Of a stretch of 32,827 nucleotides of DNA, positions 2,431 through 29,839 are shown in pieces. Below the pieces are notes generated by a model. That model worked only from the letters and a program-made list of their open reading frames with translations. It was not told where the DNA came from and searched no databases. Source of the stretch: Flavobacteriaceae bacterium (GTDB lineage Bacteria > Bacteroidota > Bacteroidia > Flavobacteriales > Flavobacteriaceae); the NCBI GenBank assembly GCA_021648445.1, contig JAKISU010000016.1, forward strand, positions 1 to 32,827, given 5' to 3'. Within the stretch, counting starts at the first letter, position 1; the number at the start of each line of letters is the position of its first letter. Both the position numbers and the translations under genes were made by a program.

Positions 2431-3027
2431 ATGAAAAAAATAATTATAATATCAATCTTACTAAGTTGTTCTTTTTATATCTACGGACAAAAAAATGAAG
2501 AAATAAATTTAATGCAAGCTGATAGTACTTGGGGAAAAGAGATTATTAAAATACCTTTTTGGTTTGCTCCAAAAATTAATTATAAAGGACACGAAGACAT
2601 CAGGTTTGCAAAAGGTTGGGAAGAAATAGATAGTGCTAGTTTTTGGACACTGGTTTTTGTTTGGGATATGAACTTAAATACTAAACCTACAATAAAATTC
2701 TTTGAAGATAATATTAAACTATATTTTAATGGATTAATGAAGGTTGTTAACGAAGATAAAGAGTTAATTATTCCAAAAACCAATGTGTTCTTTTTAGAAA
2801 ACGAAACAAAAAACGGAACAACAACTTTTACAGGAACAGTAGAAACCTACGATGCGTTTACAACTAAAAAAATGATAGCTCTACAGGTTACAATAGAAAG
2901 TTATTATTGTAAAAAAACGAAAAGATACATACCTCTTTTTAGGTTTTCTCCTAAAGATTTTAAACATGCTATTTGGAAGGAATTAAACAACATAAAACTT
3001 CGTACTACTACTGTTTGTGATAACTAA
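2431..3027 (+). CDS. Secreted protein of unknown function
   Basis: This 198-residue protein has a signal peptide (KKIIIISILLSCSFYIYGQ, cut before or after Q20). The mature part is rich in aromatic residues, with segments such as WGKEIIKIPFWFAPKINYKG, DIRFAKGWEEI and FWTLVFVWDMN. It resembles an uncharacterised family of exported Bacteroidota proteins that I recall only in outline, and I cannot assign a reaction. It sits between the two promoter cassettes and directly upstream of the S41 peptidase, so it is probably part of the same regulon. Confidence 0.8.
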   Translation: MKKIIIISILLSCSFYIYGQKNEEINLMQADSTWGKEIIKIPFWFAPKINYKGHEDIRFAKGWEEIDSASFWTLVFVWDMNLNTKPTIKFFEDNIKLYFNGLMKVVNEDKELIIPKTNVFFLENETKNGTTTFTGTVETYDAFTTKKMIALQVTIESYYCKKTKRYIPLFRFSPKDFKHAIWKELNNIKLRTTTVCDN

Positions 3028-3095
3028 TTTTACAAAATTTGACACTTCTTTTGCACTCTTTTGACACTTTTATTTTCATATCAATTTAGTTTTAC
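3028..3095 (+). promoter_or_regulatory. Promoter cassette, copy 2, upstream of the S41 peptidase gene
   Basis: Direct repeats start at 3039 (TTGACA), 3050 (TTTGCA) and 3061 (TTGACA), again 11 bp apart. They are followed by a 23-bp segment (3073-3095) identical to 2391-2413, which includes the TAGTTTTAC element at 3087-3095. The offset to copy 1 is a constant 682 bp. It begins at the stop of the preceding gene and ends 15 bp before the next ATG, so it looks like an internal promoter under the same regulator. Confidence 0.65.
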
Positions 3096-3110
3096 AGAAA
3101 AATATATACA

Positions 3111-4856
3111 ATGAAAACAATAAAAGTTATTATAATGATGGTTCTCGTTTTAATTACAACGGCTAGTTGTATTAATACCAAAGGTAATTCTTCTTCTGTT
3201 TTAAAAGAAGAGGCAATAAAACCAGAAAAACTATCTATTTCTCAAACGCTTAAAGAAAATAATCATCTACCAATTAAAGAACAGGTGGCTCTTTATCTTA
3301 AATTAAAAAAGGAAAGTCCTGATGCGTATAATTTTGAAAACGAAGATGAACTAACTATGTATGGCTATTCATATCTCTGGGGAAATGAAGTAACAGAAGC
3401 CATAGAAATATTCAAATTAATTGTTCAGCAATTCCCAAATTCATCAAATCCGTACGACAGTTTAGGTGAAGGATATATGGTAAATGGAAATAATGAATTG
3501 GCGATACTAAATTATGAAAAATCATTAGCGCTTAATCCTGATAATTTTAACGCAGAAGACCAGATTGAACGCATTAAAAATCCAGAAAAAAAACTAGCAA
3601 CGTTTGCCGATAAATTTTCAAAAGTTTACACAATTAAAGCGTATAAAGAAGATTTGAATCAATTAGGAAAAAAACTAATTGAAGTACATCCAAATGCACT
3701 CAAATTTATTTCAGAAAAAGACTTTTGGGAAACTATCAAACAAAAAAAAGCACTACTCACAGAAAGTACTACATTTAGCGAATTTTACTGGTATTGTAGC
3801 GAAATAATAGCCAATATTAATTGTTCGCATACATCAATGAGTAACTCTTTTCGAGAGGCAGATATATTGCCAGTATCTTTGCGATTCCCGATACAAACAC
3901 GATGGATTAATGAGCAGTTATTTGTAATAGACCCTTTAAACAACAAAAATAACGTTGCTGTTAAAAATGAAATAGTAAGCATAAATGGAATTGTTGTTTC
4001 AGAATTGATAGATGATATTTACAAACATATTCCATCGCAAGGTTATATAAAAACATCTAAAAGATACACTTTCAATGCTTTGGCAACAAGTATGATTCCT
4101 TACTCATTAAAATTTCCCACTATTTATAAAATTAAAGTAAAAGGAAAAGAAAATAGTATTGTTTTAAACAAAGCAAAAATAGTTAAAAACTCTTTCAACA
4201 GTACATTCAAAAAACAATGTGATGATAACTTATGTTTAGAGTTTTTAGATAACAATAAAAATGCTGTACTAACCATTTCTTCGTTTAACTATTATCCTTG
4301 GAATAATCTGTCTTTTTTTAAACAATTTATAGATAATAGTATCCAAGAAATCAACGAAAAAGATGTTGAGAATTTAATAATTGACCTTCGTTTTAATGGA
4401 GGCGGTTCTCCTGAATCTAGTATTCATTTGCTTAAATATTTAATTGATAAACCGTTTAACTATTTTTCAAATACTACAAATTCTGAAAAAGATAAAGTAT
4501 ATACTACTTTTAATAACGGATTTAAAGGCAAACTATATTTTATAATTGATGGAAATGGAAAATCTACAACAGGTCATTTTATTGCACTCGTTAAAGATTT
4601 AAAATTAGGAACTATTGTAGGAGAAGAGTTAGGTTCTAATCAGTTTTGTACTGCAGGACAAACAATATTAAGACTTTCAAATACAAAACTAAAATTTAAT
4701 GCCGCTAACTCAACATCTAAACTTACAATTTCATCGCTTCCAGATGAGGTTGGGATTTTACCCGATTTTTATGTCACTCAAAGTATCGATGACTATTTGA
4801 ATAAAGTAGATACAGTAAAGAATTTTACCTTTAATTTAATAGAAAAACAGCATTAA
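3111..4856 (+). CDS. S41-family peptidase lipoprotein with TPR repeats
   Basis: This 581-residue protein has a lipoprotein signal (LITTASC, lipid on Cys20). TPR-like repeats at about 85-155 include NPYDSLGEGYMVNGNNELAI, and an S41 (C-terminal processing peptidase-like) domain spans roughly 180-575. The strand-rich core IDLRFNGGG and the motif KSTTGHF, with candidate nucleophile Ser485, match the S-x-x-G-H/E pattern of Bacteroidota S41 enzymes, followed by GTIVGEELGSN. It is expected in the cell envelope acting on peptides or proteins; the substrate is unknown. It has its own upstream cassette and is followed after 13 bp by the DUF2911 gene. Confidence 0.85.
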   Translation: MKTIKVIIMMVLVLITTASCINTKGNSSSVLKEEAIKPEKLSISQTLKENNHLPIKEQVALYLKLKKESPDAYNFENEDELTMYGYSYLWGNEVTEAIEIFKLIVQQFPNSSNPYDSLGEGYMVNGNNELAILNYEKSLALNPDNFNAEDQIERIKNPEKKLATFADKFSKVYTIKAYKEDLNQLGKKLIEVHPNALKFISEKDFWETIKQKKALLTESTTFSEFYWYCSEIIANINCSHTSMSNSFREADILPVSLRFPIQTRWINEQLFVIDPLNNKNNVAVKNEIVSINGIVVSELIDDIYKHIPSQGYIKTSKRYTFNALATSMIPYSLKFPTIYKIKVKGKENSIVLNKAKIVKNSFNSTFKKQCDDNLCLEFLDNNKNAVLTISSFNYYPWNNLSFFKQFIDNSIQEINEKDVENLIIDLRFNGGGSPESSIHLLKYLIDKPFNYFSNTTNSEKDKVYTTFNNGFKGKLYFIIDGNGKSTTGHFIALVKDLKLGTIVGEELGSNQFCTAGQTILRLSNTKLKFNAANSTSKLTISSLPDEVGILPDFYVTQSIDDYLNKVDTVKNFTFNLIEKQH

Positions 4857-7743: not shown

Positions 7744-8049
7744 TTATGAAATATGTTTCAAAAAATTCATTCTTCCTCCCAGTACTCTTACAATAAAAAC
7801 TCCAGTTTCTGTTGGGTAATAAAAAATCATATGCGAAATATATCTATATCTAAATAACATTTTCTTACTAGTTGAAAGATATCTTTTACCATGATTAGGG
7901 TTCTTACTTAAGAACTCTAACTCTTTTGCTAACCCTATAGCATACTTTTTAGATTGTTCAACTCCAAATTTTTCAATTATATATAAAGCAATGCCCCTTA
8001 AATCTTCTTTCGAACGTACACTTAATATGTACTTATTTTTTTTGCTCAT
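7744..8049 (-). CDS. parE: ParE-type toxin of a ParDE toxin-antitoxin module
   Basis: This 101-residue protein has the RelE/ParE toxin pattern. Helix-rich residues 12-52 (KEDLRGIALYIIEKFG, YAIGLAKELEFLSKNPNHGK) are followed by a basic strand region (SKKMLFRYRYISHMIFYYP) and the closing VRVLGGRMNFLKHI. ParE proteins of this family poison DNA gyrase. The gene overlaps the upstream antitoxin gene by 17 bp, the usual translationally coupled order. No truncation is visible. Confidence 0.85.
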   Translation of the reverse strand: MSKKNKYILSVRSKEDLRGIALYIIEKFGVEQSKKYAIGLAKELEFLSKNPNHGKRYLSTSKKMLFRYRYISHMIFYYPTETGVFIVRVLGGRMNFLKHIS

Positions 8050-8284
8050 ATTCTTTTATCGCTTCATCCCATATACTAGAGATTGTTGCATCAGATGGTC
8101 CACTTTCTATACCATCAATTAAAGCTTCCTGTAAATCAATTATATATTTTCTACTTTCTTGGTCTTTACGTATAACATCTCTTATATATTCACTATCGTT
8201 AGTGTAAAACCCTTGTTCTATTAAGCTTTTTATAAAAGTATCTTGTTGTTCTGTAAATGTTATTGATTTTCTTATAACTCCCAT
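8033..8284 (-). CDS. parD: ParD-type ribbon-helix-helix antitoxin
   Basis: With ATG at 8284 the protein has 83 residues. The N terminus (GVIRKSITFTEQQDTFIKSL) is a CopG/ParD ribbon-helix-helix, followed by YTNDSEYIRDVIRKDQE and an acidic, flexible C-terminal half that would wrap the toxin. An upstream in-frame TTG at 8293 is a poorer start. The RHH dimer is expected to bind its own promoter upstream of 8284 and repress the pair. It overlaps parE by 17 bp. Confidence 0.85.
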   Translation of the reverse strand: MGVIRKSITFTEQQDTFIKSLIEQGFYTNDSEYIRDVIRKDQESRKYIIDLQEALIDGIESGPSDATISSIWDEAIKEYEQKK

Positions 8285-8377
8285 TTGAACCAAATTTAAT
8301 ATTATTGATGCAATTTATAAAATACTTATTAATATTCCAAAATATATATCCATTTATTCCCACTCCACACACATTTC

Positions 8378-12042: not shown

Positions 12043-12397
12043 TACCAATTTAATTATAAAACTAGTCATATAACTTGTTTACTCACTTCCCTTTTTATTT
12101 TTTTAAAGGAGTTCGTGATGTACTTCGTAATTCTTTTTCACTTATATTTTGTTAAAAAAAGAAACTATAATTAACGTGAGTTCGACATAACTTTTCAAAA
12201 AAGTAATAATTGTTTTAATCTATAAATCCCCCCTATGCCTGCCTACCGTTGGAGGGGCTTGCCCGCCCGTGCCGGTCGGACGGGTCTCGGGGATAGTTGG
12301 TTTCAAGATTTTTTTATTTGGAGTTATAAAATTAATTTTTTTATAAAAAAAGATAAAAAGACCTTTTTATTTAGAATTATTATAAATAACTACAAAC
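12043..12397. other. Spacer between the cotransporter gene and the nar promoter, repeat-bearing
   Basis: No real gene is seen. The first part is AT-rich and contains GGAGTTCGTGA (about 12110), whose reverse complement TCACGAACTCC occurs near 7612. The second part contains a GC-rich repeat (see the entry at 12226-12294) in otherwise AT-rich DNA. The open frame through it from 12235 is a by-product of the GC-rich repeat. Confidence 0.6.
12226..12294 (+). repeat. GC-rich dispersed repeat, left copy (inverted with respect to 24499-24524)
   Basis: Positions 12256-12281 match the reverse complement of 24499-24524 at 25 of 26 bases; both contain GCCCGTGCCGGTCGGAC. Flanking ATCCCC (from 12226) and GGGGAT (12289-12294) can pair, giving a cruciform-like outline. 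The block is far more GC-rich than the surroundings and sits 170 bp before the narC start. Confidence 0.7.
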
Positions 12398-12441
12398 CTG
12401 ATAAATGTCAGTTTTTATACTTTAATGATTTGTTAGTTTCG
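12398..12441 (+). promoter_or_regulatory. narC promoter: Crp/Fnr-type palindrome plus -7 element
   Basis: CTGATAAATGTCAG (12398-12411) is a dyad with TGAT-N4-GTCA core; outer bases AACCTGA/TCAGTTT pair at six of seven. TAGTTTCG (12434-12441) is one base from the Bacteroidota -7 consensus TAnnTTTG. The dyad centre (12404.5) is 29.5 bp from the first T of the -7 box, placing it near -41 of the expected start site, which is the class II activator position. The ric promoter has the same core and exactly the same spacing. The cognate regulator is not encoded in the window. Confidence 0.65.
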
Positions 12442-12467: not shown

Positions 12468-13325
12468 ATGGATAAAAATACTTCAACTTCGATTTTATTG
12501 GTTCTCTTTTTTTTCCTAAGTATTTTAGCTCAAGCTCAAGAGGGCGAAAGTCTTTTTAAATCTAAATGTGCAACCTGCCATAAAACATCTAATAAACGAT
12601 CAATTGGTCCGGGCTTGGCTAATGTACATGAAAAATACACCAAAGAATGGTTTAAAAATTTTGTGAATTCATCTCAAACATTAATAAAAAGTGGAGATGC
12701 TGATGCCGTAAAAATATTTGAAGAATACAACAAGGTAATAATGCCGGATCAAGCACTATCTGATGCCGAATTAAATGCCCTCTTCGATTATATCAAAAGT
12801 GTAAGTCCTGCAAAGTCAGAAGTAGCAGCTACTGAAACTGTAGAAGATAAAATAACTCCTTTTGAACCCACCAAAGAAGAAATATTAATTGGTCAAAACT
12901 TATTTTCCGGTAAAAAGAGATTTAAAAACGGCGGACCTTCATGTATCTCATGTCATGACCTTAGGTATGATGATATAATAGCTGGAGGAGGGTTATCAGT
13001 AAACTTAACAGATGTTTATGATAGACTTAAAAAAGAAGGTCTTGAAGGAATGATTACCGGACTTCCATTCCCGCAAATGAAAATTTCTTATCAAAACAAC
13101 CAAATAACAGAAGAAGAAACCACACAACTTATCGCTTTTTTAAAAGAAGTGAGCGAACAACGTTACTATCAATTAGGCCTTACATCCTATAAAAATGTAC
13201 TCTTAATATGTGGAATTATAGGCGCTATCCTATTAATGGGAATCTTCCCATTGTTTTGGTACAAGCGCAAAAAAGAAAGTGTTAATAAAAGAATTTACGA
13301 AAGACAGATTAAGTCTCACAATTAA
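12468..13325 (+). CDS. narC: Membrane-anchored dihaem cytochrome c (NarC-like)
   Basis: This 285-residue protein has a signal peptide ending near AQAQ. The first c-type haem domain has C34-A-T-C-H38, with Met92 of IMPDQ as likely distal ligand. The second has C159-I-S-C-H163, with Met204 of FPQMKISY possible. A membrane helix at about 243-264 is followed by a basic cytoplasmic tail. It is exported, so both haems face the periplasm. Thermus NarC, also a membrane-attached dihaem cytochrome c, is the first gene of the narCGHJI operon and is needed for nitrate reductase function. The matching position and layout here support the same role, in electron transfer or assembly of NarGHI. It ends 22 bp before narG. 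Confidence 0.82.
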
Positions 13326-13347: not shown

Positions 13348-16300
13348 ATGAGTTGGATTGAAGATATTATTTCCCCACAAACAAGAAAATGGGAAGAGTT
13401 TTATAAAAATCGTTTTCAACACGATAAAGTTGTAAGAAGCACTCACGGTGTAAATTGTACCGGTGGTTGTTCTTGGCAAATACACGTTAAAGAAGGTATT
13501 GTTGTTTGGGAAACCCAACAATTAGATTACCCATTATTAGAAAGTAGTTTACCTCCTTACGAACCACGTGGTTGTCAAAGAGGTATCTCTTTTTCTTGGT
13601 ATTTGTATAGCCCTTTACGAATTAAATACCCATTAATTCGTGGTGCTTTAATAGATGCTTATAGAGCAGAAAAAGAAAAATGTGGTGACCCTTTACAAGC
13701 TTGGGAAAACCTGCAAAACAATAAAGAAGCAAGACAAAGATACCAACACGCTAGGGGAAAAGGTGGATTTAGAAGAGTCCATTGGGATGAAGTTTTAGAA
13801 ATTATGGCTGTTGCAAATATTTATACAGCCAAAAAATATGGTCCGGACAGAGTTGTTGGCTTCTCCCCTATTCCTGCAATGTCTATGCTTAGTTATGCAG
13901 GAGGATCAAGATTCTTACAATTATTTGGAGGTGTAAATTTAAGTTTTTACGACTGGTATTGTGATTTGCCAAATGCATTCCCTGAAATTTGGGGAGAACA
14001 AACAGATGTTTGCGAAAGTGCTGATTGGTACAACTCAAAAATGGTCGCTGTAATGGGAGCCAATTTAAATATGACAAGAACTCCTGATTGTCATTTCTTT
14101 GCCGAATCAAGACATAACGGAACCAAAGCAGTAGTATTCTCACCGGACTTTAATCAAGTAGCAAAATATGCCGATCAATGGGTACCGTTACACGCAGGTA
14201 GTGATGGTGCTTTTTGGATGGCGGTAACCCACGTGATACTAAAAGAATTTCATCACGAAAAGAAAATACCCTATTTTATAGAATATACAAAACGCTATAC
14301 AGATAGCCCATATTTGGTTGAACTAAAAGATGAAGGTGGCTATTATTCTTCAGGAAGACTATTACGTGCCAACCAATTAGAGCAACACAAAGATATAGAG
14401 CAAGGCGATTGGAAGTTTGTAAATATCGATGAAAATACAGGAGATTTTGTAATTCCGAAAGGAAGCTCAGGATACAGATGGCAAGAGGAGAAAGGAAAAT
14501 GGAATATGAAATATGAAGACGGTGAAACAGATAAAGCATACAATCCTGTTTTAAGTCTTTTAGAAACTAAAGATGATATAGCTCAAGTTGAATTTACAGA
14601 ATTTGGACTGGACAAGAAAGCATTGCGCAATGTTCCGGTAAAAAGAATTCAAACCGTAGATGGAGAGCGTTTGGTTACTACCGTTTACGACCTGACCATG
14701 GCGCAATATGGTGTTAGTAGAGGGCTGGATGGAGATTATCCAAAAAGCTATGGCGAAAAAGATCAAGCATACACTCCTGCTTGGCAAGAGATATTTACAG
14801 GCATTGATGCCAAAATGATAATCAATTTTGCGAGAGAATGGGCAAATACTGCCGAAGTTACAGAAGGAAAATGTATGATTATTATTGGTGCCGGTATCAA
14901 TCACTGGTATCATAACAACTTAATGTACCGATCTGGTATTATGGCTTTAATGCTAACCGGTTGTGTAGGTAAAAATGGTGGCGGTATGAATCATTATGTT
15001 GGTCAAGAAAAACTAGCACCTTCAGATTCTTGGGGTGCAATTGCGTTTGCAAAAGATTGGCAAGGACCACCAAGGTTACAACAAGCTCCTATTTGGCATT
15101 ATATTAATACTTGTCAATATAGATACGATGGACATTCATCTAGATACAATACAGTTCCGGAAAATGAAATGACGGCAGGTCATCATGCAGATCACATTTT
15201 TAAATCTGTAAGAATGGGTTGGATGCCTTTCTTCCCTCAGTTTGATCAAAACACATTAGAACTTAGTAAAGAAGCCATAGCAAACGGCGCAAAAACAGAT
15301 GATGATATTCAAAAATATGTACTTGAAAAACTAAAAAGTAAAGAGTTGGGCTATGCTGTTGGAGATCCTGAAAACGATTTTAACTTCCCCAGAACTTGGT
15401 ATATATGGAGAGGAAATGCAATCTCGGGAAGTATGAAAGGAAATGAATTTGCTCTTAAACATTATTTAGGAACAACATCAAATGCTATTTCTAAGGATTA
15501 CGATGAAGAGAAAACCAAAGAAGTTAAATGGCATGAAATTGCACCAACCGGTAAAATGGATTTAGTGGTAGATCTTAATTTCCGTATGGATTCATCTGCA
15601 TTATATTCAGATATTGTATTACCTGCAGCATCTTGGTACGAAAAAGACGACTTGAATAGTACAGATATGCACTCGTTTATACACCCCTTGTCGAAAGCCA
15701 TTGCGCCCGTATGGGAATCAAAATCTGACTGGGAAATATTTAAGGAAATCGCTAAAAAAACAAGTGAACTTTCAGAAAAATATCTTTCAGAAACACAAAT
15801 CGATATTGTTACAACAGCAATTGCTCATGATTCAAAAGGCGAAGTCGCACAAAAGGATATTAAAGATTGGTATCATGGTGAATGTGAAGCAATTCCCGGT
15901 AAAACAATGCATGGTATTTCAGTAGTAAAAAGAGATTATACCAAAATTTATGAAAAATTCTGTGCCTTAGGAGAAAATGTAAAAACCAAAGGTTTAGGAG
16001 CACACGGTAACCATTATATGTGTGGTGATGAATATGACGAAATGATAGAATCTAATCATTTTCCAACCATTAAAATCGGCGATAAAAAATATCCTTCAAT
16101 TGCAGAAGACGTTGAAGCTGCTAATGCAATATTACATTTATCCACATTAACCAATGGTTCACTTACTGTAAGGGCTTATGAAAATATGGAGAAAAAAACA
16201 GGTTTAAATTTGGTAGATCTCGCTAAGGGTAATGAAGATTTTAGGTTAGATTTTAAAGATTTACAAGCCCAGCCAAGAAGATATCTAACATCTCCTGTTT

Positions 16301-16968
16301 GGTCAGGACTTATGAATGACGGTAGAGCATATGCTGCTTTTACTTATAATATAGAACGATTAATCCCTTGGAGAACATTAACTGGAAGGCAACATTTCTA
16401 TTTAGACCATGAAATGTACATTGCCTATGGTGAACATTTACCAACATACAAGCCATCTCCTTGCCCTGAAGTTTACGGCGATTTAAAAGAAACCCTAAAA
16501 GGGAAGAGTATGGCTAAAGCATTAAACTGCTTAACACCTCATGGCAAATGGCATATCCACTCTACCTATATGGATAATATTAGAATGTTAACACTCTCTA
16601 GAGGTATGGAACCTTGTTGGATAAGTGAAGCCGATGCAGAAGATATGGGTATTAAAGACAATGATTGGGTAGAAGTGCACAACGACAATGGTACCTATTG
16701 TACAAGAGCCGTAGTAAGTTCAAGAATTCCTAAAGGAGTTTGTATTGTGTATCACACAGTAGAAAGAACAATTAGTATTCCTAAATCTCAATTAAGAAAT
16801 GGCAATAGAGGTGGTTCTAATAATAGTATTACTAGAATTCATTTAAAACCCAATTTATTGGCAGGAGGCTATGGTCAATTTACTTTCCATTTTAATTATT
16901 GGGGACCTACTGCGGTAAATAGAGATACACACGTTGTAATTCAGAAAATGGATAAAGTAGAATGGTAA
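13348..16968 (+). CDS. narG: Respiratory nitrate reductase alpha subunit (Mo-bisMGD)
   Basis: With ATG at 13348 this is 1206 residues, close to E. coli NarG (1247). The FS0 [4Fe-4S] ligands are present as H33-GVN-C37-TGG-C41 and C76 (EPRGCQRG), corresponding to His49/Cys53/Cys57/Cys92 of E. coli. The Mo ligand is Asp206 in FYDWYCDLP, equivalent to Asp222. Long stretches such as [18 protein letters not shown] and [14 protein letters not shown] are near-identical to known NarG. There is no twin-arginine signal, so the catalytic site should face the cytoplasm. It reduces nitrate to nitrite with electrons from NarH. A GTG-initiated extension from 13279 overlaps narC and is unlikely. Confidence 0.97.
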
Positions 16969-17111: not shown

Positions 17112-18662
17112 ATGGATGTACGTTCACAGATTTCAATGGTATTTCATTTAGATAAATGTATTGGATGCCATACCTGCTCAATAGCTTGTAAAAATATTTG
17201 GACAGATAGAAAAGGTGCTGAATATATGTGGTGGAACAATGTTGAAACCAAACCAGGTACCGGATATCCAACCAAATGGGAAGACCAAGAAATATATAAA
17301 GGTGGTTGGGAAAAAAATATGGGAAAAATTCGCTTAAAAGGAGCAGGAAAAGCCAAAGGTTTATTAAATATTTTTCATAACCCACACTTACCTGTAATAG
17401 ACGATTACTATGAACCTTTTACCTATAAATATTTAAACTTGATTGAATCTCCGGAAGAAGACACTCAAGTTACGGCAAGACCGGTATCAATGATAACAGG
17501 AAAACCTATAGATATTAAAATGGGCCCTAACTGGGACGATGATTTAAGCGGTACGCCAGACTATGCACGTAACGATCCAAATTTTAAAAACTTATCTGCA
17601 GGAGAGCAAGAGGCAATGTTTCAATTAGAACGTATGGCTATGTTCTACTTGCCAAGAATTTGCAACCATTGTTTAAATCCTGCCTGTGTAGGTTCTTGCC
17701 CTTCAAGAGCCATCTATAAAAGAGGAGAAGATGGTGTGGTTCTTATTAACCAAAATGTGTGTAGAGCCTGGAGAATGTGTGTTACTGCTTGCCCGTATAA
17801 AAAATCATATTATAATTGGGGAACCGGAAAGTCTGAAAAATGTATTCTTTGTTATCCTAGGTTAGAATCCGGTCAAGCACCAGCATGTATGCACTCTTGT
17901 GTAGGACGTATTAGGTATTTAGGTGTAATGCTTTACGATGCAAGTCAGATTGAGGCTGTAGCAAATTCAGATGATGAAGATCTAATAAAAAGGCAAATGG
18001 ATATGATATTAGATCCTTTTGATCCTAAAGTAATTGCTTCAGCAAAGAAAAACGGAATTGCAGATTCTACCTTAAAAGCAGCTCAAGATTCACCAACCTA
18101 TAAATTTGTAAAAGAATGGGGAATGGCATTACCACTTCACCCGGAGTTTAGAACAATGCCAATGCTATTTTATGTTCCGCCATTATTACCCGTTATGGCA
18201 ACTTTAAGTAACAATGATGTAGAATCGCAAAAAGACACCTTAAACCCTATCTCTAAATTTTGGGAAAGAGCAACAAAATACGATGCTTCTATGGATAACA
18301 TTTTTGGTACTGTTGACGATGCTCGTTTTCCTCTTAAATACTTAGCAAATTTATTTAGCAATGGTGATGAAGAATTAATAAAAATTACTTTGAAAAAATT
18401 AATGGCTGTCAGACTGCATCGTAGAGATGTTACCGTTGGCGATTTAAGTAAAGAAATGGTTGCCGAAAGCTTAAAAGAAGTTGGTTTAGATACCGAAATG
18501 GCAGATGCGATTTACTATTTAACTTCCCTAGCAAAATTTGATGACCGTTTTGTAATTCCTGCTGCACATAGAGAGCAAGCAATTGAAATGACCGAGTTTA
18601 CCGGAGACAGAAAAGGAGATGCAGGATTCGGATTTACTGAGCATCCTGCTCGTGGACTTTAA
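17112..18662 (+). CDS. narH: Respiratory nitrate reductase beta subunit (Fe-S electron transfer)
   Basis: This 516-residue protein has four ferredoxin-type Cys clusters. They are C16-IG-C19-HT-C22-SIA-C26; C184-NH-C187-LNPA-C192-VGS-C196; C217-RAW-RM-C223-VTA-C227; and C244-IL-C247 with C259 and C263. Trp220 in CRAWRMC is the residue that gives one [3Fe-4S] cluster in E. coli NarH, at the identical number. The protein therefore carries three [4Fe-4S] and one [3Fe-4S] cluster and links NarI haem b to NarG. Start and length agree with the family. It is followed by a 266-bp repeat-bearing gap before narJ. Confidence 0.97.
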   Translation: MDVRSQISMVFHLDKCIGCHTCSIACKNIWTDRKGAEYMWWNNVETKPGTGYPTKWEDQEIYKGGWEKNMGKIRLKGAGKAKGLLNIFHNPHLPVIDDYYEPFTYKYLNLIESPEEDTQVTARPVSMITGKPIDIKMGPNWDDDLSGTPDYARNDPNFKNLSAGEQEAMFQLERMAMFYLPRICNHCLNPACVGSCPSRAIYKRGEDGVVLINQNVCRAWRMCVTACPYKKSYYNWGTGKSEKCILCYPRLESGQAPACMHSCVGRIRYLGVMLYDASQIEAVANSDDEDLIKRQMDMILDPFDPKVIASAKKNGIADSTLKAAQDSPTYKFVKEWGMALPLHPEFRTMPMLFYVPPLLPVMATLSNNDVESQKDTLNPISKFWERATKYDASMDNIFGTVDDARFPLKYLANLFSNGDEELIKITLKKLMAVRLHRRDVTVGDLSKEMVAESLKEVGLDTEMADAIYYLTSLAKFDDRFVIPAAHREQAIEMTEFTGDRKGDAGFGFTEHPARGL

Positions 18663-18928: not shown

Positions 18929-19591
18929 ATGAAAAAACAATTATTAGATTACAATAAAATTTCTAAACTATTTGTCTTTCCTCAAAAAGAAGACTATGCT
19001 GATAATGTAAAAAATGTGCAACAATATTTAGATAAAGCACTACCAAATGTTGGTAAAATATTGCAACCTTTTACAGATGTAGTTAGTAGTATAAGTAAAT
19101 ATGAACTAGAAGATCTCTATTTAAGATCCTTTGAGGTGCAATCTATTACAACTTTAGATATTGGATATGTAGTTTTTGGAGATGACTATAAAAGAGGTGA
19201 ACTATTGGTGAACCTTAATAAAGAGCATAAAACCTATAATATAGACTGTGGCAATGAGCTAGCAGATAATTTATCGAATATATTAAAACTAATAAGCCAA
19301 ATTAAAGACCCGAAGTTACTGGATGATCTGGTAAATAAAATAGTTGCTCCTGCCTTAACTAAAATGATTCAAGGGTTTGGCAAAGATCAAATTAAAGCAA
19401 AAGAAAAAGTATATATAAAACACCATAAAACACTGTTAGACAAGCATAAACACTTCACTATATATAAACACTCTTTATTTGCTTTATACAAAGCATTAGA
19501 TCATGACTTTAAAATTAAAGCACAAGAACAACCTCAACGGTCAGGAGGATTTTTAAGTTCAATTAAACAAGAAATAACATTAGAAACATAA
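18929..19591 (+). CDS. narJ: Nitrate reductase assembly chaperone (NarJ/TorD family)
   Basis: This 220-residue soluble, helical protein is divergent but keeps the NarJ pattern. ELEDLYLRSFEVQSITTLDI corresponds to the conserved E..Y...FD......L.. motif, YVVFGDDYKRGELLVNLN to YH.FGDSR.RGEALV.L, and ELADNLSNILKLI to the E..D.LP..LEF segment. NarJ binds apo-NarG and helps insert the Mo cofactor and FS0 cluster, and it is not part of the final enzyme. Position between narH and narI supports the call. It ends 15 bp before narI. Confidence 0.88.
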   Translation: MKKQLLDYNKISKLFVFPQKEDYADNVKNVQQYLDKALPNVGKILQPFTDVVSSISKYELEDLYLRSFEVQSITTLDIGYVVFGDDYKRGELLVNLNKEHKTYNIDCGNELADNLSNILKLISQIKDPKLLDDLVNKIVAPALTKMIQGFGKDQIKAKEKVYIKHHKTLLDKHKHFTIYKHSLFALYKALDHDFKIKAQEQPQRSGGFLSSIKQEITLET

Positions 19592-19606
19592 TTAAATAAT
19601 AATAAT

Positions 19607-20335
19607 ATGGATGCACTAAACAACTTCTTTTTTATCGCCTTACCATACATAGCATTTGTAGTATTCTTAATAGGAACTATTTTTAAGTATAGATTACAAA
19701 AGTTTAAATTTTCGTCCTTATCCTCTCAATTTTTAGAAGGTAAAAAATTATTTTGGGGTTCAGTTCCTTTTCATTGGGGACTTATGATTTTGTTTTTTGG
19801 ACACCTTTTCGCATTCCTTATTCCAAAAAGTATTATCCTATGGAATAGTGAACCTTTAAGGTTATTATTCTTAGAAATATCTTCATTTATAGCTGCAATT
19901 TGTGTTTTTGTAGGGTTGATCCTTTTATATATAAGAAGATTGACTGATGAAAGAATTAGAATGGTAACTACCAAAATGGATATTTTTATAGAATTATTAT
20001 TGTTATTTATAATATTTACCGGAATGTACACCGCAGTATTCTATAGATGGGGAAGCACATGGTTTGCGTCAGTAATTTCACCTTATTTAAAATCTGTTTT
20101 TAGACTTTCGCCAGAAATTTCTGCGGTAAGCGCTATGCCTATAATGTTTAAACTACACATAATAGGTGCATACTTACTTATTTTAATGACTCCATTCACA
20201 CGATTGGTACATTTTCTAGTATATCCGTTAAATTACCTTTGGAAACCCTATCAACAAGTAATTTGGAATTGGAATAAAAGAAAAGTAAGAAGCCCGAAAA
20301 CACCTTGGTCTATACACCGTCCTAAAAACAATTAA
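19607..20335 (+). CDS. narI: Respiratory nitrate reductase gamma subunit (dihaem b, quinol oxidase)
   Basis: This 242-residue protein has five membrane helices. The four haem b ligands are present: H56 and H66 (FHWGLMILFFGH) and H184 and H202 (KLHIIGAYL...RLVHFL). The first pair has E. coli numbering exactly, and the second keeps the 18-residue spacing of His187/His205. It anchors NarGH to the cytoplasmic membrane and oxidises quinol (menaquinol expected in this phylum) at the periplasmic side. It is followed after 8 bp by narK1. Confidence 0.96.
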   Translation: MDALNNFFFIALPYIAFVVFLIGTIFKYRLQKFKFSSLSSQFLEGKKLFWGSVPFHWGLMILFFGHLFAFLIPKSIILWNSEPLRLLFLEISSFIAAICVFVGLILLYIRRLTDERIRMVTTKMDIFIELLLLFIIFTGMYTAVFYRWGSTWFASVISPYLKSVFRLSPEISAVSAMPIMFKLHIIGAYLLILMTPFTRLVHFLVYPLNYLWKPYQQVIWNWNKRKVRSPKTPWSIHRPKNN

Positions 20336-20343
20336 CATTTTTA

Positions 20344-21900
20344 ATGACTACTATGGATAATTCGGCACCTAGACTACTTAATTTTAAAGACCCTAGCATA
20401 AAGACGTTACATTATACTTGGATAGCATTTTTTCTAACTTTTGTAGTTTGGTTTAACGTAGCTCCGATTTTAACAAAAATGTTAGATCAATTTGAGTGGT
20501 TAACTAAAGCCAATGTAAAGTCTATCATTTTATGTAACGTTGCTTTAACAATACCTGCTCGTGTTGTGGTTGGTAATTTAATTGACCGCTACGGCCCAAG
20601 AGTGATTTTTGCAGGTTTAATGGTCTTAACCGTTATTCCGGGTTTGCTGTTTGCCTTTGGAGACACACTTACCATGCTAACAATATCCAGATTATTTTTA
20701 GGTACCATTGGCGCCGGTTTTGTAATTGGCATTAAAATGACAGCCAATTGGTTTACACCAAAATATATTGGTCGTGCAGAAGGTTTTTATGCAGGTTGGG
20801 GTAATTTTGGTTCTGCTGCTGCTGCTGCTTTAGTACCATTCTTTGCCATTTCTGTAATAGGCGGAGAAGATGGCTGGAGATGGTCTTTGGCAATTACTAG
20901 CATTATGTGTGCGGTTTATGGTGTGTTCTACTTTTTTATAGTAAAAGACCATCCGGAAGGTGTTAAAATTAAAGAAAAAAAAGGAAAACTAGAACCTTTG
21001 CCAATTACTTCAAAGAAAGATTTAGTGCAATATTGGTTTTGGCAATTTCCATTATTTGGTGCTATTGGCTTAGTAGTATATAATTTACACAAACAGCAGG
21101 TTGATGGACAGGCAATGCTAAGTTGGACTACAGTTTATATAATGTGGGGAGTGTTGTTTCTTGTTTATCTAATGGATGTGATCAAGGTAACAAAACATAA
21201 CTTGCCTAAAATAAAAGAAGGTATTCCGGAAAAAGACAAATACTCTTTTGCCAATATTGGAGCATTGAATGCAACCTATTTTGCTAATTTTGGTGCTGAA
21301 CTGGCCATTGTGTCTATGCTACCCATGTTTTTTTATCAAGTTTTTAGTTCTCTATTAAATGCTAATGGAGATAGAATAGTAACTTTAGAAATGGCAGGGC
21401 TTATTGCAGGTTCTTTTGCCGTTATTAATTTAATTGCCCGTCCGTTAGGCGGATTACTTTCAGATAAAATGGGCAACAGAAAAAAAACAATGATTTTCTA
21501 TATGATAGGAATTGTTCTCGGTTTTTTCTTAATGGCTATCATTCCTCAATATGGTCCGGTTGATAGTGTTACAGGCGAAGTAACATTAGTTCCTCTTTAC
21601 AACACGGTAACTTGGCTAGTGGTTTCAATAGTAATTACCATATTTGCTTCCTTTTTTGTACAAGGAGCCGAAGGTGCAACATTTGCTATTATTCCAACTA
21701 TTAAAAAAGATATGACAGGTCGTATTGCCGGAATGGCTGGTGCTTACGGGAATGTAGGTGCGGTAGTATATTTGTTTTTATACACAATGACAGATGAAAA
21801 AACATTCTTGTTTTTTCTTTCTGCCGGTGCTCTTGTTAGTTTAATATATACAGTATTTTCATTAAAAGAGCCTAAGGGTGCTTTTGAAGATTATCATTAA
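20344..21900 (+). CDS. narK1: Nitrate/nitrite transporter, MFS NarK type 1-like
   Basis: This 518-residue, 12-helix major facilitator has the nitrate-porter signatures: an arginine-bearing helix 2 (ALTIPARVVVGNLIDRYGPR), the glycine-rich helix 5 motif GWGNFGSAAAAAL, a second arginine helix (LIARPLGGLLSDKMG), and the second glycine motif AGAYGNVGAVVYLF. The short N terminus before helix 1 and the DRYGPR loop are closer to type 1 NarK, usually nitrate/proton symporters that start nitrate import. That type assignment is by recall. An ATG three codons in (20353) is an alternative start. Confidence 0.9.
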   Translation: MTTMDNSAPRLLNFKDPSIKTLHYTWIAFFLTFVVWFNVAPILTKMLDQFEWLTKANVKSIILCNVALTIPARVVVGNLIDRYGPRVIFAGLMVLTVIPGLLFAFGDTLTMLTISRLFLGTIGAGFVIGIKMTANWFTPKYIGRAEGFYAGWGNFGSAAAAALVPFFAISVIGGEDGWRWSLAITSIMCAVYGVFYFFIVKDHPEGVKIKEKKGKLEPLPITSKKDLVQYWFWQFPLFGAIGLVVYNLHKQQVDGQAMLSWTTVYIMWGVLFLVYLMDVIKVTKHNLPKIKEGIPEKDKYSFANIGALNATYFANFGAELAIVSMLPMFFYQVFSSLLNANGDRIVTLEMAGLIAGSFAVINLIARPLGGLLSDKMGNRKKTMIFYMIGIVLGFFLMAIIPQYGPVDSVTGEVTLVPLYNTVTWLVVSIVITIFASFFVQGAEGATFAIIPTIKKDMTGRIAGMAGAYGNVGAVVYLFLYTMTDEKTFLFFLSAGALVSLIYTVFSLKEPKGAFEDYH

Positions 21901-21983
21901 AAAGTTGGAAGTCTGAAGTTCAACATTAAAAATTAAAAATTTAACATTTCTCTGTGAAACAACTAAGTTAAAAATTAAAAACC

Positions 21984-23612
21984 ATGTCTATTAACATTAA
22001 GGATTGGAACGTAGAAGATGAATCCTTTTGGAATTCTAAAGGAAAAAAAATAGCCACTAGAAACTTATGGTCATCTATACCTGCATTACTTCTTGCATTC
22101 TCAATTTGGATAATGTGGGGTGTACTAATCAAGTATATGAAAGAATTTGGTTTTACTTTTGGGATGGTCGAAGGACTCGTACAAGGTTCTGAAGAATACA
22201 TTACAAAACTTAAAGAAATTAATAGTTTGTATTATACGCTACCCGCAATAGCTGGCCTATCTGGTGCTACTTTAAGACTTCCTAACTCCTTTTTAATATC
22301 ATTAGGAGGTGGTAGAAATGTAATTTTTGTTACAACTGCGTTACTCATAATTCCGGCTATCGGAACAGGAATTGCACTTAGTGACATCAATACTCCTTAT
22401 ATATTCTTTGCAATAATGGCTTTACTTTCTGGTTTTGGTGGAGGTAATTTTGCATCATCAATGAGTAATATCAGTTTCTTTTTTCCGAAGAAAATGCAGG
22501 GTTATGCATTGGGCATGAATGCCGGACTCGGAAACCTTGGGGTCGGTATTATGCAAAAAGTGATACCACTAGTTGTAACCCTTTCATTATTCGGAGGTAC
22601 AGCAGGTTCTATTGCAACAGCAAAAGGAGCTCCATTTGAAGGCTTACAAAATGCTGCATGGGTTTGGGTACCGTTAATAGTATTGGCTACTTTAGGTGCA
22701 TTTTTTGGAATGAACAACATTTCAACAGGTACACCAAGTTTACCAAATACTGTAAAAGGTATTTCTAAAACGTTATATATGGTTTTACTTGGTTTAATTG
22801 CCGCCGCCGTAGGAGCATTTTTGCTAATTGGTCTTCCTTGGGAAGATTGGGGTATGAAAAATTCTTCTATGTGGATCGTTCTCCCTATTGTAATTCTTCT
22901 TTGTGTTTTTCTTATGAAAGTTGCAACCCCTAGTGAAATAAAACAAAATCTTAACAAACAATTCTCAATTCTTGACGATAAGCATAATTGGATTATGACT
23001 ATTATTTATGTTATGACATTTGGTTCTTTTATCGGATACTCTATGGTATTTCCTAAATTAGCTCAAGATATATTTGTGTATTCTAATGAATTAGATCCGG
23101 AATGGGTAAACCCAAACGCTCCAAATATTATGCTGTGGGCATTCTTAGGTCCGGTAATTGGTGCTTTAGTTAGACCATTAGGAGGTATTCTTTCAGATAA
23201 AGTAAATAGTGGTTCTAGAGTAACAGCCTGGAGTACCTTTTTTCAAATTATTGCTGCACTTGCCGTTGCGTATTTTGTTATACAGACAAAAGGCACTGAA
23301 ACCCCTGAACAATACTGGTGGCCATTCTTTGCAGCATTTATGGTGTTGTTTTTAATGACTGGAATAGGAAATGGATCTACTTTTAGAAGTATTCCGTATA
23401 TTTTCTCTAAAGAAAAAGCAGGTCCTGTATTAGGCTGGACTTCGGCAATTGCAGCGTATGGAGCCTTTATTATTCCTAAAGTGTTCGGACAACAAGTTAA
23501 AGCCGGACATGCTGAATATGCCCTTTATGGATTCGCTATATATTATTTAATCTGTTTACTACTCAATTGGTGGTATTATTTGGGTCCTAAAAGAGAATTT
23601 GATAAGCCATAA
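21984..23612 (+). CDS. narK2: Nitrate/nitrite antiporter, MFS NarK type 2 (E. coli NarK-like)
   Basis: This 542-residue protein has an N terminus (DWNVEDESFWNSKGKKIATR, then NLWSSIPALLLAFSIW) that closely follows that of E. coli NarK. So do LSGATLRLPNSFLI with the substrate-binding arginine, FGGGNFASSMSNISFFFPKK, AGLGNLGVGIMQ and RPLGGILSDKV. An insertion after helix 1 (about 60-80) makes it longer than E. coli NarK (463). It is expected to exchange cytoplasmic nitrite for external nitrate once respiration runs. It lies 83 bp after narK1, with repeat-like AT-rich sequence between. Confidence 0.93.
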   Translation: MSINIKDWNVEDESFWNSKGKKIATRNLWSSIPALLLAFSIWIMWGVLIKYMKEFGFTFGMVEGLVQGSEEYITKLKEINSLYYTLPAIAGLSGATLRLPNSFLISLGGGRNVIFVTTALLIIPAIGTGIALSDINTPYIFFAIMALLSGFGGGNFASSMSNISFFFPKKMQGYALGMNAGLGNLGVGIMQKVIPLVVTLSLFGGTAGSIATAKGAPFEGLQNAAWVWVPLIVLATLGAFFGMNNISTGTPSLPNTVKGISKTLYMVLLGLIAAAVGAFLLIGLPWEDWGMKNSSMWIVLPIVILLCVFLMKVATPSEIKQNLNKQFSILDDKHNWIMTIIYVMTFGSFIGYSMVFPKLAQDIFVYSNELDPEWVNPNAPNIMLWAFLGPVIGALVRPLGGILSDKVNSGSRVTAWSTFFQIIAALAVAYFVIQTKGTETPEQYWWPFFAAFMVLFLMTGIGNGSTFRSIPYIFSKEKAGPVLGWTSAIAAYGAFIIPKVFGQQVKAGHAEYALYGFAIYYLICLLLNWWYYLGPKREFDKP

Positions 23613-24549: not shown

Positions 24550-25809
24550 TTAATGGGTATAGGAAAAAAACTGAGGTTTAAAAGTTATCATTACCCATCC
24601 CCAGCTATTATTTTCGTCTTTGTCTCCACCTTTTAGTATTTCCATTGTATCTGTTGCAAACATTTTTGAATATCCGGCATTTACAGAAATATTCTTATCT
24701 AATTTATAACCTACTGTAAAATCAATTTCTGTTCCTAAATTATTATCCATTTTAACTGATCCGTTATAAACATCGGCAGCAGCTGAGAACAAATGAGGAA
24801 CTAATTTTGCAGAAAATTTATCCTTTTTGTATGCTAATGTTGCGTAAATATCTGTCAAACCAACTGAACCTGCGTAATTACCAACATAAAAATAGTCCAT
24901 CAAACCATTAAATTTATGGTTTGTACCAAATAGAGGTGCAAAAGATCTTACATCAGAATTGGAATCATTCATATCTTTACCTGATAGATATTCCATCCCA
25001 ACTCCTAATGAGAAATGTTTTATTACTTTATAATCAATATTTCCTGCATAATAGGATGCACTTACGTCTGCATCTAATGATTTTCCGGTTTGGAAATAAG
25101 TAGCTACATTGGCACTAAGTTTATCGGATTTATACGTTAATCTTGGACCAATGGTTTGCATATAGTCAATAACTTGTTTTTCTTCTGAACCGGAATTGTC
25201 TAAATATTCGATACCTGTATTTAATAGCAAGAAACTTAAGCCAAACTTATTAAAGTCACCATGATACCAAGCATATTGAAACGCTTTGTATCCTGCAGCA
25301 TTACTGTACAACTCATCGGTTATTCCTTCTCTGTCTGAATTTAGTGCTAAACCTATATCCAATCTATTATTCTTATTTGGTGTAAACTTGAAAAGAAAAG
25401 CATCATGACTACGGGCTTGTTGTGCCCAATCTACATTACCAAAAATTCTATGGTCATCATATACTATCTCTTGCCTTCCTAATTTAAAAGAAACCTTATC
25501 TGACAAAATTGTTTCAGCCCATGCTTCGTGTAAGGCTGTTGCATTATCATCACTCGCCATTGTGGCGACATCTCCCCAAACTCTGATGTTTTGAAAAATT
25601 ACTCGTAACCTAATTTTATCTTGTTCATAATCAAAATTTAAACGAGTTCTTTGTGAAACAAAGTTAGTACCGTCTGCATCTTTATCTATAAGTGTACTAA
25701 AGCCATGTCTATTTTCATAACGCGGTCTTAACTCAGCAGATAAATCAAACTGTTGTGCGTTTATCACACCACTGATACTCAATAGTGAAATAAAAATTAA
25801 CTTCTTCAT
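24550..25809 (-). CDS. Outer-membrane porin, alginate-export-like beta-barrel
   Basis: This 419-residue protein has a signal peptide (FISLLSISGVINAQ). The chain is made of alternating amphipathic strands, with the family-like opening LSAELRPRYENRHG, SQRTRLNFDY, HEAWAETILSDKVSFKLGRQ and EIVYDDHRIFGNVDW, and a C-terminal aromatic strand (GWVMITFKPQFF). This fits the Alginate_exp type of barrel, which in many organisms is a general solute channel and not an alginate exporter. It lies 12 bp after ric and shares its promoter, so passage of nitrate, nitrite or another anaerobic-respiration solute is the likely reason for it here. Confidence 0.82.
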   Translation of the reverse strand: MKKLIFISLLSISGVINAQQFDLSAELRPRYENRHGFSTLIDKDADGTNFVSQRTRLNFDYEQDKIRLRVIFQNIRVWGDVATMASDDNATALHEAWAETILSDKVSFKLGRQEIVYDDHRIFGNVDWAQQARSHDAFLFKFTPNKNNRLDIGLALNSDREGITDELYSNAAGYKAFQYAWYHGDFNKFGLSFLLLNTGIEYLDNSGSEEKQVIDYMQTIGPRLTYKSDKLSANVATYFQTGKSLDADVSASYYAGNIDYKVIKHFSLGVGMEYLSGKDMNDSNSDVRSFAPLFGTNHKFNGLMDYFYVGNYAGSVGLTDIYATLAYKKDKFSAKLVPHLFSAAADVYNGSVKMDNNLGTEIDFTVGYKLDKNISVNAGYSKMFATDTMEILKGGDKDENNSWGWVMITFKPQFFSYTH

Positions 25810-25821
25810 CTGTTTATATTT

Positions 25822-26535
25822 TTATTGTTTTTCTAATTGAATTGCTTTAGGAAACAAAATATTGTTTTCTAAATGTATATGTTGATGTAAATCTTGTTCA
25901 AACTCTTCCAATTTTGCATATAAGGCTCTAAAAGTATTACAAGCACCTTCCGGTGGAGAATAATTAGTAGTTAATCTTGCAATTTCTTTAAAAATATCTC
26001 CAGCATTTTCATGCTCGTTTTCCATCATTTGTATTGGGTTTTTTACTGTTCCGAAATGGGGTTTTAAAGGAGGTGCTCCTTCATCTTTTGCCTTAACCAA
26101 TTGTTTTATATGAGGGAAAAGAATGAGTTCTTCTTTTCTCATGTGTACAGTAAGTTCATTAGCAATTTCAGTAAATAAATTATTTATTTCTACAACTTCT
26201 GTATAGTGTTGTCCATGTACTTCAGCCACTCTATTTGCATATTGAATAAGCAAAGGAATGTTCTCTTCAACATAAGTATGATGTACATTTAAAATGTGGT
26301 CTATGAGAAAACTTAAATCCCAATTATCATAGTCATATGCTTTTGAAACAACAGCATCAATAGCGTCTAATTCCTTTTTTAAAACGAGATAATCAAGGTC
26401 TTTTTTTGCACATGCTTTTTCAATGGTGACTCCACCTCCACAACAAAAATCAATTCCATATTTTTTAAAAATATGTGCAGATTTTATATTCTCTGTTACA
26501 GTTTCTGCTACTGTTTTATCTTTAGTTATATTCAT
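25822..26535 (-). CDS. ric: Iron-sulfur cluster repair di-iron protein RIC (ScdA/YtfE family)
   Basis: This 237-residue protein has an N-terminal ScdA_N domain with YGIDFCCGGG (C31, C32), then a hemerythrin-like four-helix bundle. Its ligands are H85/H86, H107, H131xxxE135, H175 and H219xxxE223, matching the YtfE arrangement. RIC proteins repair Fe-S clusters damaged by NO or oxidants and have been reported to act on NO. In a nitrate-respiring cell the NO comes from nitrite, which explains the pairing with nar. It is first gene of the ric-porin operon, with a Crp/Fnr-type promoter. Confidence 0.94.
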   Translation of the reverse strand: MNITKDKTVAETVTENIKSAHIFKKYGIDFCCGGGVTIEKACAKKDLDYLVLKKELDAIDAVVSKAYDYDNWDLSFLIDHILNVHHTYVEENIPLLIQYANRVAEVHGQHYTEVVEINNLFTEIANELTVHMRKEELILFPHIKQLVKAKDEGAPPLKPHFGTVKNPIQMMENEHENAGDIFKEIARLTTNYSPPEGACNTFRALYAKLEEFEQDLHQHIHLENNILFPKAIQLEKQ

Positions 26536-26584: not shown

Positions 26585-26629
26585 CAAAACTATATATTAG
26601 TTTGAAGTTAAATTATGATTTATGTCATA
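26585..26629 (-). promoter_or_regulatory. ric promoter: Crp/Fnr-type palindrome plus -7 element
   Basis: TATGATTTATGTCATA (26614-26629, plus-strand reading) has perfect 5-bp arms around six bases, with the same TGAT-N4-GTCA core as the narC site. On the minus strand TAGTTTTG (26592-26585) matches TAnnTTTG fully. The dyad centre (26621.5) is 29.5 bp from the first T of the -7 box, identical to narC. The ric ATG is at 26535, leaving a leader of about 45 bp. Confidence 0.7.
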
Positions 26630-29088: not shown

Positions 29089-29839
29089 TATAATAAAAGA
29101 CTATTTTATCTTCTATAAAAATACAGCGCATCTTTTGTTATTTGCAAGCAAAAGGAAATGAGTTATCAAAAATGTTATTAACAGTAGAACTAATCATGTT
29201 ATTACCTTAAATACACAAATATCTTCCGAAACCGAACTGCACATCATTATTGGGAATGCTCGATTTTCAAATCTCACCATAACTAGTGCTATGTTTACGA
29301 GTCTCAAATCTGTACTACACCAATACTAACATTTTGGAATTTTTTGAATAGATACAAGGTTAACAAATTCATAGTTTTTGGGAGAGATTAGCGTTTATAG
29401 GTAGCTTTAAAACTACCCAGTTTCACTAGTTTTTATGAAGAGGGAATTTTGTAACTTGTATATGAATATAAACGGACTAATTTGGCACTATAAAGTAAGA
29501 AAAGGAGATAATATTTTCAAGTCTTTATTGTATTAGGCAAGCAATAATTTTATCTACTTGTTTTAGAGAAATGTTGTTATGTAAAACCCCCGGTTATATG
29601 TAAATAAAATTAAAAAACGGACTAATGAATAGTAATTTTAAAACCAATTGCCTATGAAATAGTAAATCAGCCAAATAACCGAAGGAGATGCAATATTAAT
29701 ATTTTTTGGTCAGAAAACGCCTTTGGTAATCATAAAACTCATATAAACAAAGAGTAAAGTGATTATAAAACTCACATAGACAAAGAGTAAAGATTTTCGC
29801 GAAATCCGGAAAATGTGAAATCATAAATTTAAACTTAAA
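29089..29839. other. 750-bp gene-free region
   Basis: No coding sequence is supported on either strand. It must contain the nrdG promoter (minus) and probably the promoter of the lipoprotein gene (plus). Visible structure: a perfect dyad TGTTATTAACA (29173-29183), a stem GGTAG (29400-29404)/CTACC (29413-29417), and a 33-bp tandem duplication (29731-29796). Sequence near 29221-29262 resembles sequence near 32721-32762. An undetected small RNA or decayed gene cannot be excluded. Confidence 0.5.
29731..29796. repeat. 33-bp tandem duplication upstream of the lipoprotein gene
   Basis: Two adjacent 33-bp units (29731-29763 and 29764-29796) agree at 27 of 33 positions; both contain ATAAAACTCA and ACAAAGAGTAAAG. 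The second unit ends 44 bp before the ATG at 29840. A doubled binding site or a slippage product are both possible. Confidence 0.65.

Follow-up and report, generated by a model that had tools for sequence, protein, structure and literature searches.

A predicted FNR-like operator at one fixed distance from the −7 boxes of narC and ric, and its candidate regulator, in a Flavobacteriaceae genome

The narC and ric promoters of a Flavobacteriaceae bacterium both carry a Crp/Fnr-type palindrome, which raises the question of whether one regulator reads the two sites, which protein this might be and which signal it would follow. The window, i.e. the whole stretch of 32,827 nucleotides analysed here, contains only two TGAYN4RTCA sequences, and these are the narC and ric sites. 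The predicted narC operator, TGATAAATGTCA, occupies positions 12399 to 12410 on the plus strand with its dyad centre at 12404.5, and the predicted ric operator, which reads TGACATAAATCA towards ric, occupies positions 26616 to 26627 on the minus strand with its centre at 26621.5. The first-pass annotation had described a TGAT-N4-GTCA string common to the two promoters; both sites are present, but the string given for ric belongs to the plus-strand reading, TGATTTATGTCA, i.e. to the strand opposite to the gene. Read towards their genes, the half-sites are swapped between narC and ric, which is irrelevant for a symmetric dimer, and the common form is TGAY-N4-RTCA. The identical spacing, claimed at the same time, is exact: the dyad centre and the first T of the −7 box are 29.5 bp apart at narC (box TAGTTTCG, 12434 to 12441, plus strand, one mismatch to TAnnTTTG) as well as at ric (box TAGTTTTG, running from 26592 to 26585, minus strand).

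The first gene of the nar cluster, narC (12468 to 13325, plus strand), encodes a cytochrome c with two CxxCH motifs (PF00034) and adjoins narG, the gene of the nitrate reductase alpha subunit (13348 to 16968, plus strand), which begins at an internal ATG of the open reading frame listed from 13279. The beta subunit gene narH (17112 to 18662, plus strand) was, like narG, named from sequence, and homologues of narG were located. A narJ-like frame without Pfam match, narI and two narK-type MFS transporter genes come next (18929 to 23612, plus strand), narJ and narI being named by position and sequence only. On the minus strand, ric (25822 to 26535) encodes ScdA_N and hemerythrin domains (Pfam), and directly 3' of it lies the gene of an Alginate_exp-type outer-membrane porin (24550 to 25809, minus strand); given the 12-bp gap between them, the two probably form one operon. 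Upstream of narC, the AT-rich intergenic region holds a short GC-rich stretch, possibly a repeat element (12225 to 12300), and two small overlapping ORFs at 7744 to 8293 (minus strand) resemble, on sequence alone, a ParE/ParD toxin-antitoxin pair.

FNR and CRP bound at the class II position in Escherichia coli are centred at −41.5. In Flavobacterium psychrophilum, mapped start sites show that the sigma-A box, TAnnTTTG, spans −12 to −5 (PMC9723704). If the boxes of narC and ric hold the same position, a centre 29.5 bp before the first T falls at −41.5, so that both operators would stand at the class II position, in keeping with the placement proposed in the first-pass annotation. The starts predicted in this way are 12446 for narC and 26580 for ric, with leaders of 22 and 45 nt; the median leader in the F. 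psychrophilum study is 24 (PMC9723704).

Taken alone, the half-site string is near chance. TGATN4GTCA is expected 0.86 times per window and was found twice, and in the whole genome it occurs 118 times versus 81 in a backward control. This is not so for the string together with its spacing, since the site followed at a gap of 23 bp by TANNTTYG is expected 0.0075 times per window (first-order Markov model) and was found twice; this pattern was fitted post hoc, and counts in the genome and in 100 genomes are the better test. For these counts the full (strict) element was TGAYN4RTCA followed after 22 to 24 bp by TANNTTTG. It occurs 11 times in the host assembly (G000, 85% complete) and never in the backward control, which preserves base composition only and not promoter structure. 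Random occurrence of the motif across the genome, which would have spoken against a common regulator, is thus not what is seen for the full element. The gap is exactly 23 bp in 10 of the 11 elements, and together with the 29.5 bp common to narC and ric this is the one fixed operator-to-box distance expected of class II sites. The single element with a gap of 22 bp, on contig C36 at the point where two ABC-permease-like coding frames meet, is probably a chance match. Because its box ends in TTTCG, narC falls outside the strict pattern; gap-23 elements number 13 in the genome when narC is included together with the elements of ccoN and of the Fe-S side of C90, whose boxes both read TAnnTTTA. The preference for a gap of 23 bp over 22 or 24 is a stronger argument than the backward-control counts.

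Which genes stand behind these elements? Those scoring over curated cut-offs are a nosZ cluster with two tandem sites (fasciclin-domain protein, cytochrome c and nosZ), an Rrf2 regulator, hemN, korA (2-oxoacid oxidoreductase alpha subunit) and ccoN (a fused ccoNO); ccoN, like narC, has the element with a looser box. An sdhC-like gene stays under the cut-off, its Sdh_cyt score being 21.3 bits where 25.8 are required; a short ORF resembling universal stress proteins was named from sequence or under the cut-off, and a nitroreductase-like ORF at a contig edge, without Pfam match, has the least typical site, TGATATAGGTCA. A typical gap-23 element also precedes a 605-residue ORF (L116:4020-5837) that has neither a Pfam nor an NCBIfam match and is divergent from a cluster that encodes an NrfD protein and an Fe-S protein, the latter DsrO-like but below the cut-off. 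As a whole, these genes look like the set that an anaerobic respiratory regulator would control. Nitrate respiration and NO-damage repair, the two functions that the first-pass annotation had joined under one regulator, are included through narC and ric, but the set is much wider. Among the genes it had named for a motif scan, the nosZ cluster and fnr (see below) carry the site, whereas nrdDG does not: positions 29089 to 29850 contain neither TGAN6TCA nor TANNTTTG, and control of nrdDG by the same site was rejected. In the 85%-complete assembly there is no match to Prismane (Hcp), no NirK over the cut-off and no frame recognised as NorB-like among the two COX1 matches, one of which is ccoN. 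With narG and nosZ present, no Hcp match, no NirK over the cut-off and only two COX1 matches in this 85% of the genome, the bacterium is possibly a partial denitrifier.

The survey of relatives covered 100 genomes, namely G000 and 99 others; relatives and promoters by themselves point to a Bacteroidota, probably flavobacterial, origin of the DNA. The full element occurs in them 872 times versus 54 in the control, at least once in 91 of the 100, and among the 150 places listed the gap is 22 bp in 9, 23 bp in 126 and 24 bp in 15. One hundred loci were also chosen by gene (fnr, ric and narC searches plus fnr-cco stretches), the pattern playing no part in the choice; they gave 25 gaps of 22 to 24 bp, 24 of 7 to 12 bp and 8 elsewhere within 0 to 60 bp. 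For 31 Bacteroidota narH loci the figures were 4 gaps at 22 to 24 bp and 5 elsewhere, and a control palindrome, with 0 matches in either locus set, was uninformative. At ccoN, which was within reach in 19 of 21 loci examined, a site lies within 350 bp in 18 of the 19 and the gap is 23 or 24 bp in 16; the hemN and nosZ-cluster promoters of genome G009 retain the gap of 23 bp. The site, its spacing and the existence of a wider regulon are solid by computation.

The narC and ric sites themselves are less widely distributed. In the nearest named relative (L009; NarH 95% and NarC 70.5% identical to those of the window), the narC operator, TGACAAATATCA, at a gap of 22 bp, has both half-sites altered and retains the TGAY-N4-RTCA rule. 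Among the 28 other narC loci, in 8 of which the alignment begins after residue 100 and the gene start was extrapolated, the full element was found in 2 (L009 and L062) and any TGAYN4RTCA within 400 bp in 5. Of 30 ric loci, the present one among them, 4 carry a gap-23 element before ric or before a gene reading into it (L181, L182, L184 and L193); L183 has a gap of 24 bp, the sites of L187 and L192, at 73 and 81 bp upstream, lack a recognised box, and one locus offered only 85 bp of upstream sequence. An Rrf2-type gene (MFSKACEYGIKA..., named from sequence) lies directly upstream of ric in 10 of the 30 (L196-L199, L201, L204-L207, L210) and one gene further upstream in L194, which suggests that ric is controlled differently in these loci. 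Pairwise conservation of the two sites was consequently rejected for most relatives (2/28 and 4/30 loci). Loss of the sites in close relatives that keep the genes was another outcome that would have counted against the proposal, and elsewhere the sites are in fact poorly preserved; the narC site persists in altered form in L009. Joint control of the narC and ric operons would therefore be local, neither site being widely conserved, while for the present genome such shared control is supported.

A single Crp/Fnr-type regulator encoded outside the window had been postulated, and the common operator type agrees with this. Two proteins of the assembly score over the HTH_Crp_2 cut-off (on C161 and C119), and ten have a cNMP_binding domain. 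The strong candidate is the C161 protein, of 228 residues (G000:C161:46421-47104), encoded beside ccoI and ccoN and assigned to the Crp/Fnr superfamily by PF00027 (74.2 bits, cut-off 27.5) and PF13545 (48.1 bits, cut-off 27). In its recognition helix, Glu191 and Arg195 are invariant in 30 of 30 sequences and align with Glu209 and Arg213 of FNR, while the position of FNR Ser212 is taken by Ile194. The Fe-S cluster of E. coli FNR is held by C20, C23, C29 and C122. Three of these have equivalents in all 30 sequences (Cys4, Cys7 and Cys106 for C20, C23 and C122), but the C29 column holds a cysteine in fewer than 5 of the 30, so that the family lacks the four-cysteine set of the E. coli type; Cys53 (30/30) and Cys59 (29/30) are extra and are candidates for a substitute fourth cluster ligand. 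In the structure model, residues 1 to 11 have a pLDDT under 50. The best NCBIfam match is NF008365 (Fnr), at 86.5 bits versus a cut-off of 228. Since the C29 column so rarely holds a cysteine and this cut-off is not reached, the C161 protein, which would work like FNR, is not to be filed as an E. coli-type FNR.

FNR is not singled out by fold or overall similarity. A profile of the 30 sequences matched 2gau best (1.2e-41), then FNR (5e44, 2.5e-32), with the cAMP-binding GlxR (1.2e-29) and Mycobacterium tuberculosis CRP (1.7e-29) almost as near, and after them E. coli CRP (1.8e-20) and DNR (3dkw, 4.8e-15), and was thus nearer to FNR than to DNR; with the single sequence, M. tuberculosis CRP (1e-18) was slightly ahead of FNR (1e-17). 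In the structure search, 2gau again came first, with Z 26.5 (rmsd 1.9, 217 aligned), and GlxR/CRP chains (Z 23-26) ranked above FNR (Z 22.2, rmsd 3.1, 224 aligned). This nearest solved structure, a Crp/Fnr protein of Porphyromonas gingivalis, is 32% identical over the structural alignment, and its sequence match begins at profile position 18, after the CxxC. It is the cysteines, the helix, the neighbouring genes and the target genes that point to FNR.

The regulator gene itself has the operator. Of the 30 loci that match best, which are 48-100% identical and include that of G000, 27 have TGAYN4RTCA within 300 bp upstream of fnr, and in 26 of the 30 it stands 9 to 12 bp from a box TAnnTT[TC]N; in many fetched stretches the operator is shared with the divergent ccoI (L114:10367-10378; L240-L259). 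With its centre at about −27.5 to −30.5, the operator would overlie the −33 region, an arrangement suggestive of self-repression. The density of elements per Mb is 3.40 where the genome has a C161 relative at E up to 1e-40 (62 genomes), 2.38 where there is a weaker relative only (16 genomes) and 0.62 where there is none (22 genomes), figures that are uncorrected for kinship and to be read with the genomes without relative being mostly small (the 2.4-4.5 Mb band has only 3 of them, with 5 elements and 2 in the control). The density of 2.38 in the 16 genomes with a weaker relative implies that other regulators read the same element. The evidence that ties the sites to the C161 protein is thus strong, though of an indirect kind.

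The signal had been left as low oxygen or nitric oxide. An NO-sensing DNR-like or NnrR-like regulator, encoded in the roughly 15% of the genome that the assembly leaves unseen, would account for nar, nos and ric, which are typical of NO regulons. The DNR and HcpR regulons resemble the present set in being run by Crp/Fnr activators, at nor, nos or hcp, that use TTGATn4ATCAA or TTGACn4GTCAA, the DNR motif TTGATn4ATCAA being nearly identical to the present one; they differ in being NO-responsive (PMC1274295). We consider such a regulator unlikely, and favour the FNR-like reading over NO, because no Prismane match, no NorB-like frame among the two COX1 matches and no NirK over the cut-off were seen in the 85%-complete assembly and the profile of the C161 candidate is nearer to FNR than to DNR; ccoN, hemN, korA and the sdhC-like gene also fit oxygen better. 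FNR proteins can respond to NO too, so the oxygen and NO readings overlap. HcpR2 of Bacteroides recognises GTAACn4GTTAC and mostly controls hcp alone (PMC1274295), whereas the motif here is TGAY-N4-RTCA and the 85%-complete assembly has no Prismane match.

Another protein of the same fold might read the sites instead of the C161 protein. Apart from the C161 protein, only C119 (218 aa, beside YeeE/YedE-like genes) exceeds the HTH_Crp_2 cut-off, and with ten cNMP_binding proteins in all there are eight shorter ones besides. However, these eight remain below the HTH_Crp_2 cut-off, and in the helix of C119 a Val replaces the Glu of FNR and CRP, at the position correlated with the A of TGA (PMC1274295); the nearest TGAYN4RTCA lies about 500 bp upstream of C119, inside the preceding gene. 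This makes either choice very improbable. Much the same judgement, slightly more severe, applies to a response regulator with Crp/Fnr output (receiver, cNMP and HTH_Crp_2 domains), such as probably reads the element in G009. The recognition helix of the G009 protein is almost identical to that of the C161 protein, its gene sits among elements of the same spacing, and regulators of its type may explain genomes that have elements and no close C161 relative; but no receiver fusion was seen in the present assembly, where none of the 10 cNMP_binding matches lies in an open frame longer than 233 residues, and around the G009 gene the centres of the elements are mostly GG-rich, which those of this genome are not. 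That AT-rich sequence should have produced the whole pattern by coincidence is scarcely credible: the half-site string by itself stays close to chance (118 vs 81), but the full element does not (11 vs 0 in the genome, 872 vs 54 in 100 genomes, with gap 23 dominant), and its placement is conserved at fnr and ccoN.

We regard it as probable that one dimeric FNR-like activator, most likely the C161 protein, uses both sites as its operators and would turn on a wider low-oxygen gene set. As oxygen falls, the C161 protein, probably via an Fe-S cluster, would bind TGAY-N4-RTCA centred at −41.5 and contact RNA polymerase on the Bacteroidota −7 box, and narC-narGHJI, ric, the nosZ cluster, hemN, ccoN, korA, the sdhC-like gene and a few others would be activated. 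At its own promoter, in the region common to the divergent ccoI, the operator is 11-14 bp closer to the −7 box, and binding there would block the promoter, with probable self-repression. The sites, their spacing and enrichment, the genes that follow them and the conservation at fnr and ccoN are observed; binding, activation, oxygen as signal, the Fe-S cluster and self-repression are what we infer. The predicted system shares with E. coli FNR the TTGATn4ATCAA core (PMC1274295), the predicted centre at −41.5, the Glu and Arg of the helix, the equivalents of Cys20, Cys23 and Cys122 and the anaerobic respiratory genes. It differs in the rarity of Cys at the Cys29 column (fewer than 5/30), in the extra Cys53 and Cys59, and in promoters that have the sigma-A box TAnnTTTG and not the −10 hexamer.

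In F. psychrophilum, the cbb3 oxidase and heme synthesis are induced when oxygen is limited, and the main text of that study contains neither 'fnr' nor 'crp' (PMC9723704). CRP/FNR homologues in Flavobacteriales and Saprospiraceae MAGs of a nitrogen-cycling community, Bacteroidota Crp/Fnr proteins as well, were predicted to be MalR-like carbon sensors, and so were assigned to carbon and not to low oxygen (PMC8510549). Among the open-licence papers that the searches listed, titles and abstract openings gave no description of a Bacteroidota FNR regulon with this motif. A candidate sensor, an operator, an exact promoter geometry and target genes can now be named for the flavobacterial low-oxygen response. 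The arrangement would show how Crp/Fnr class II activation fits the unusual Bacteroidota −7 promoter, and with the nosZ cluster in the set it bears on the timing of nitrous oxide removal by Bacteroidota. A broader generalisation is offered tentatively, as conceivable though rather doubtful: flavobacteria-like Bacteroidota may own an FNR oxygen-sensor class, with its cluster held by the CxxC near the N terminus, by the equivalent of C122 and by a fourth ligand displaced to Cys53 or Cys59, a family-wide −41.5 regulon on TAnnTTTG, self-repression from an operator 11-14 bp closer, and an operator code shared with response regulators of the same helix. If this were true, two-component signals could feed into the same promoters through the response regulators that share the code.

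Two further observations were made in relatives. In L009, the gene of a porin like that following ric (2666 to 3937) has its own TGACATTTGTCA at 2596 to 2607, with GAATTTTG at a gap of 23 bp. In two loci of G009 (L231 and L232, G009:C1:2155000-2194999), gap-23 elements precede BON-domain, ferritin and other stress-type genes, and the centres of these elements are mostly GG-rich, e.g. TGACCTAGGTCA; the response regulator fused to a Crp/Fnr domain is encoded there (L232, 12493 to 13563, minus strand) near a multi-PAS kinase, and its recognition helix is nearly identical to that of the C161 regulator.
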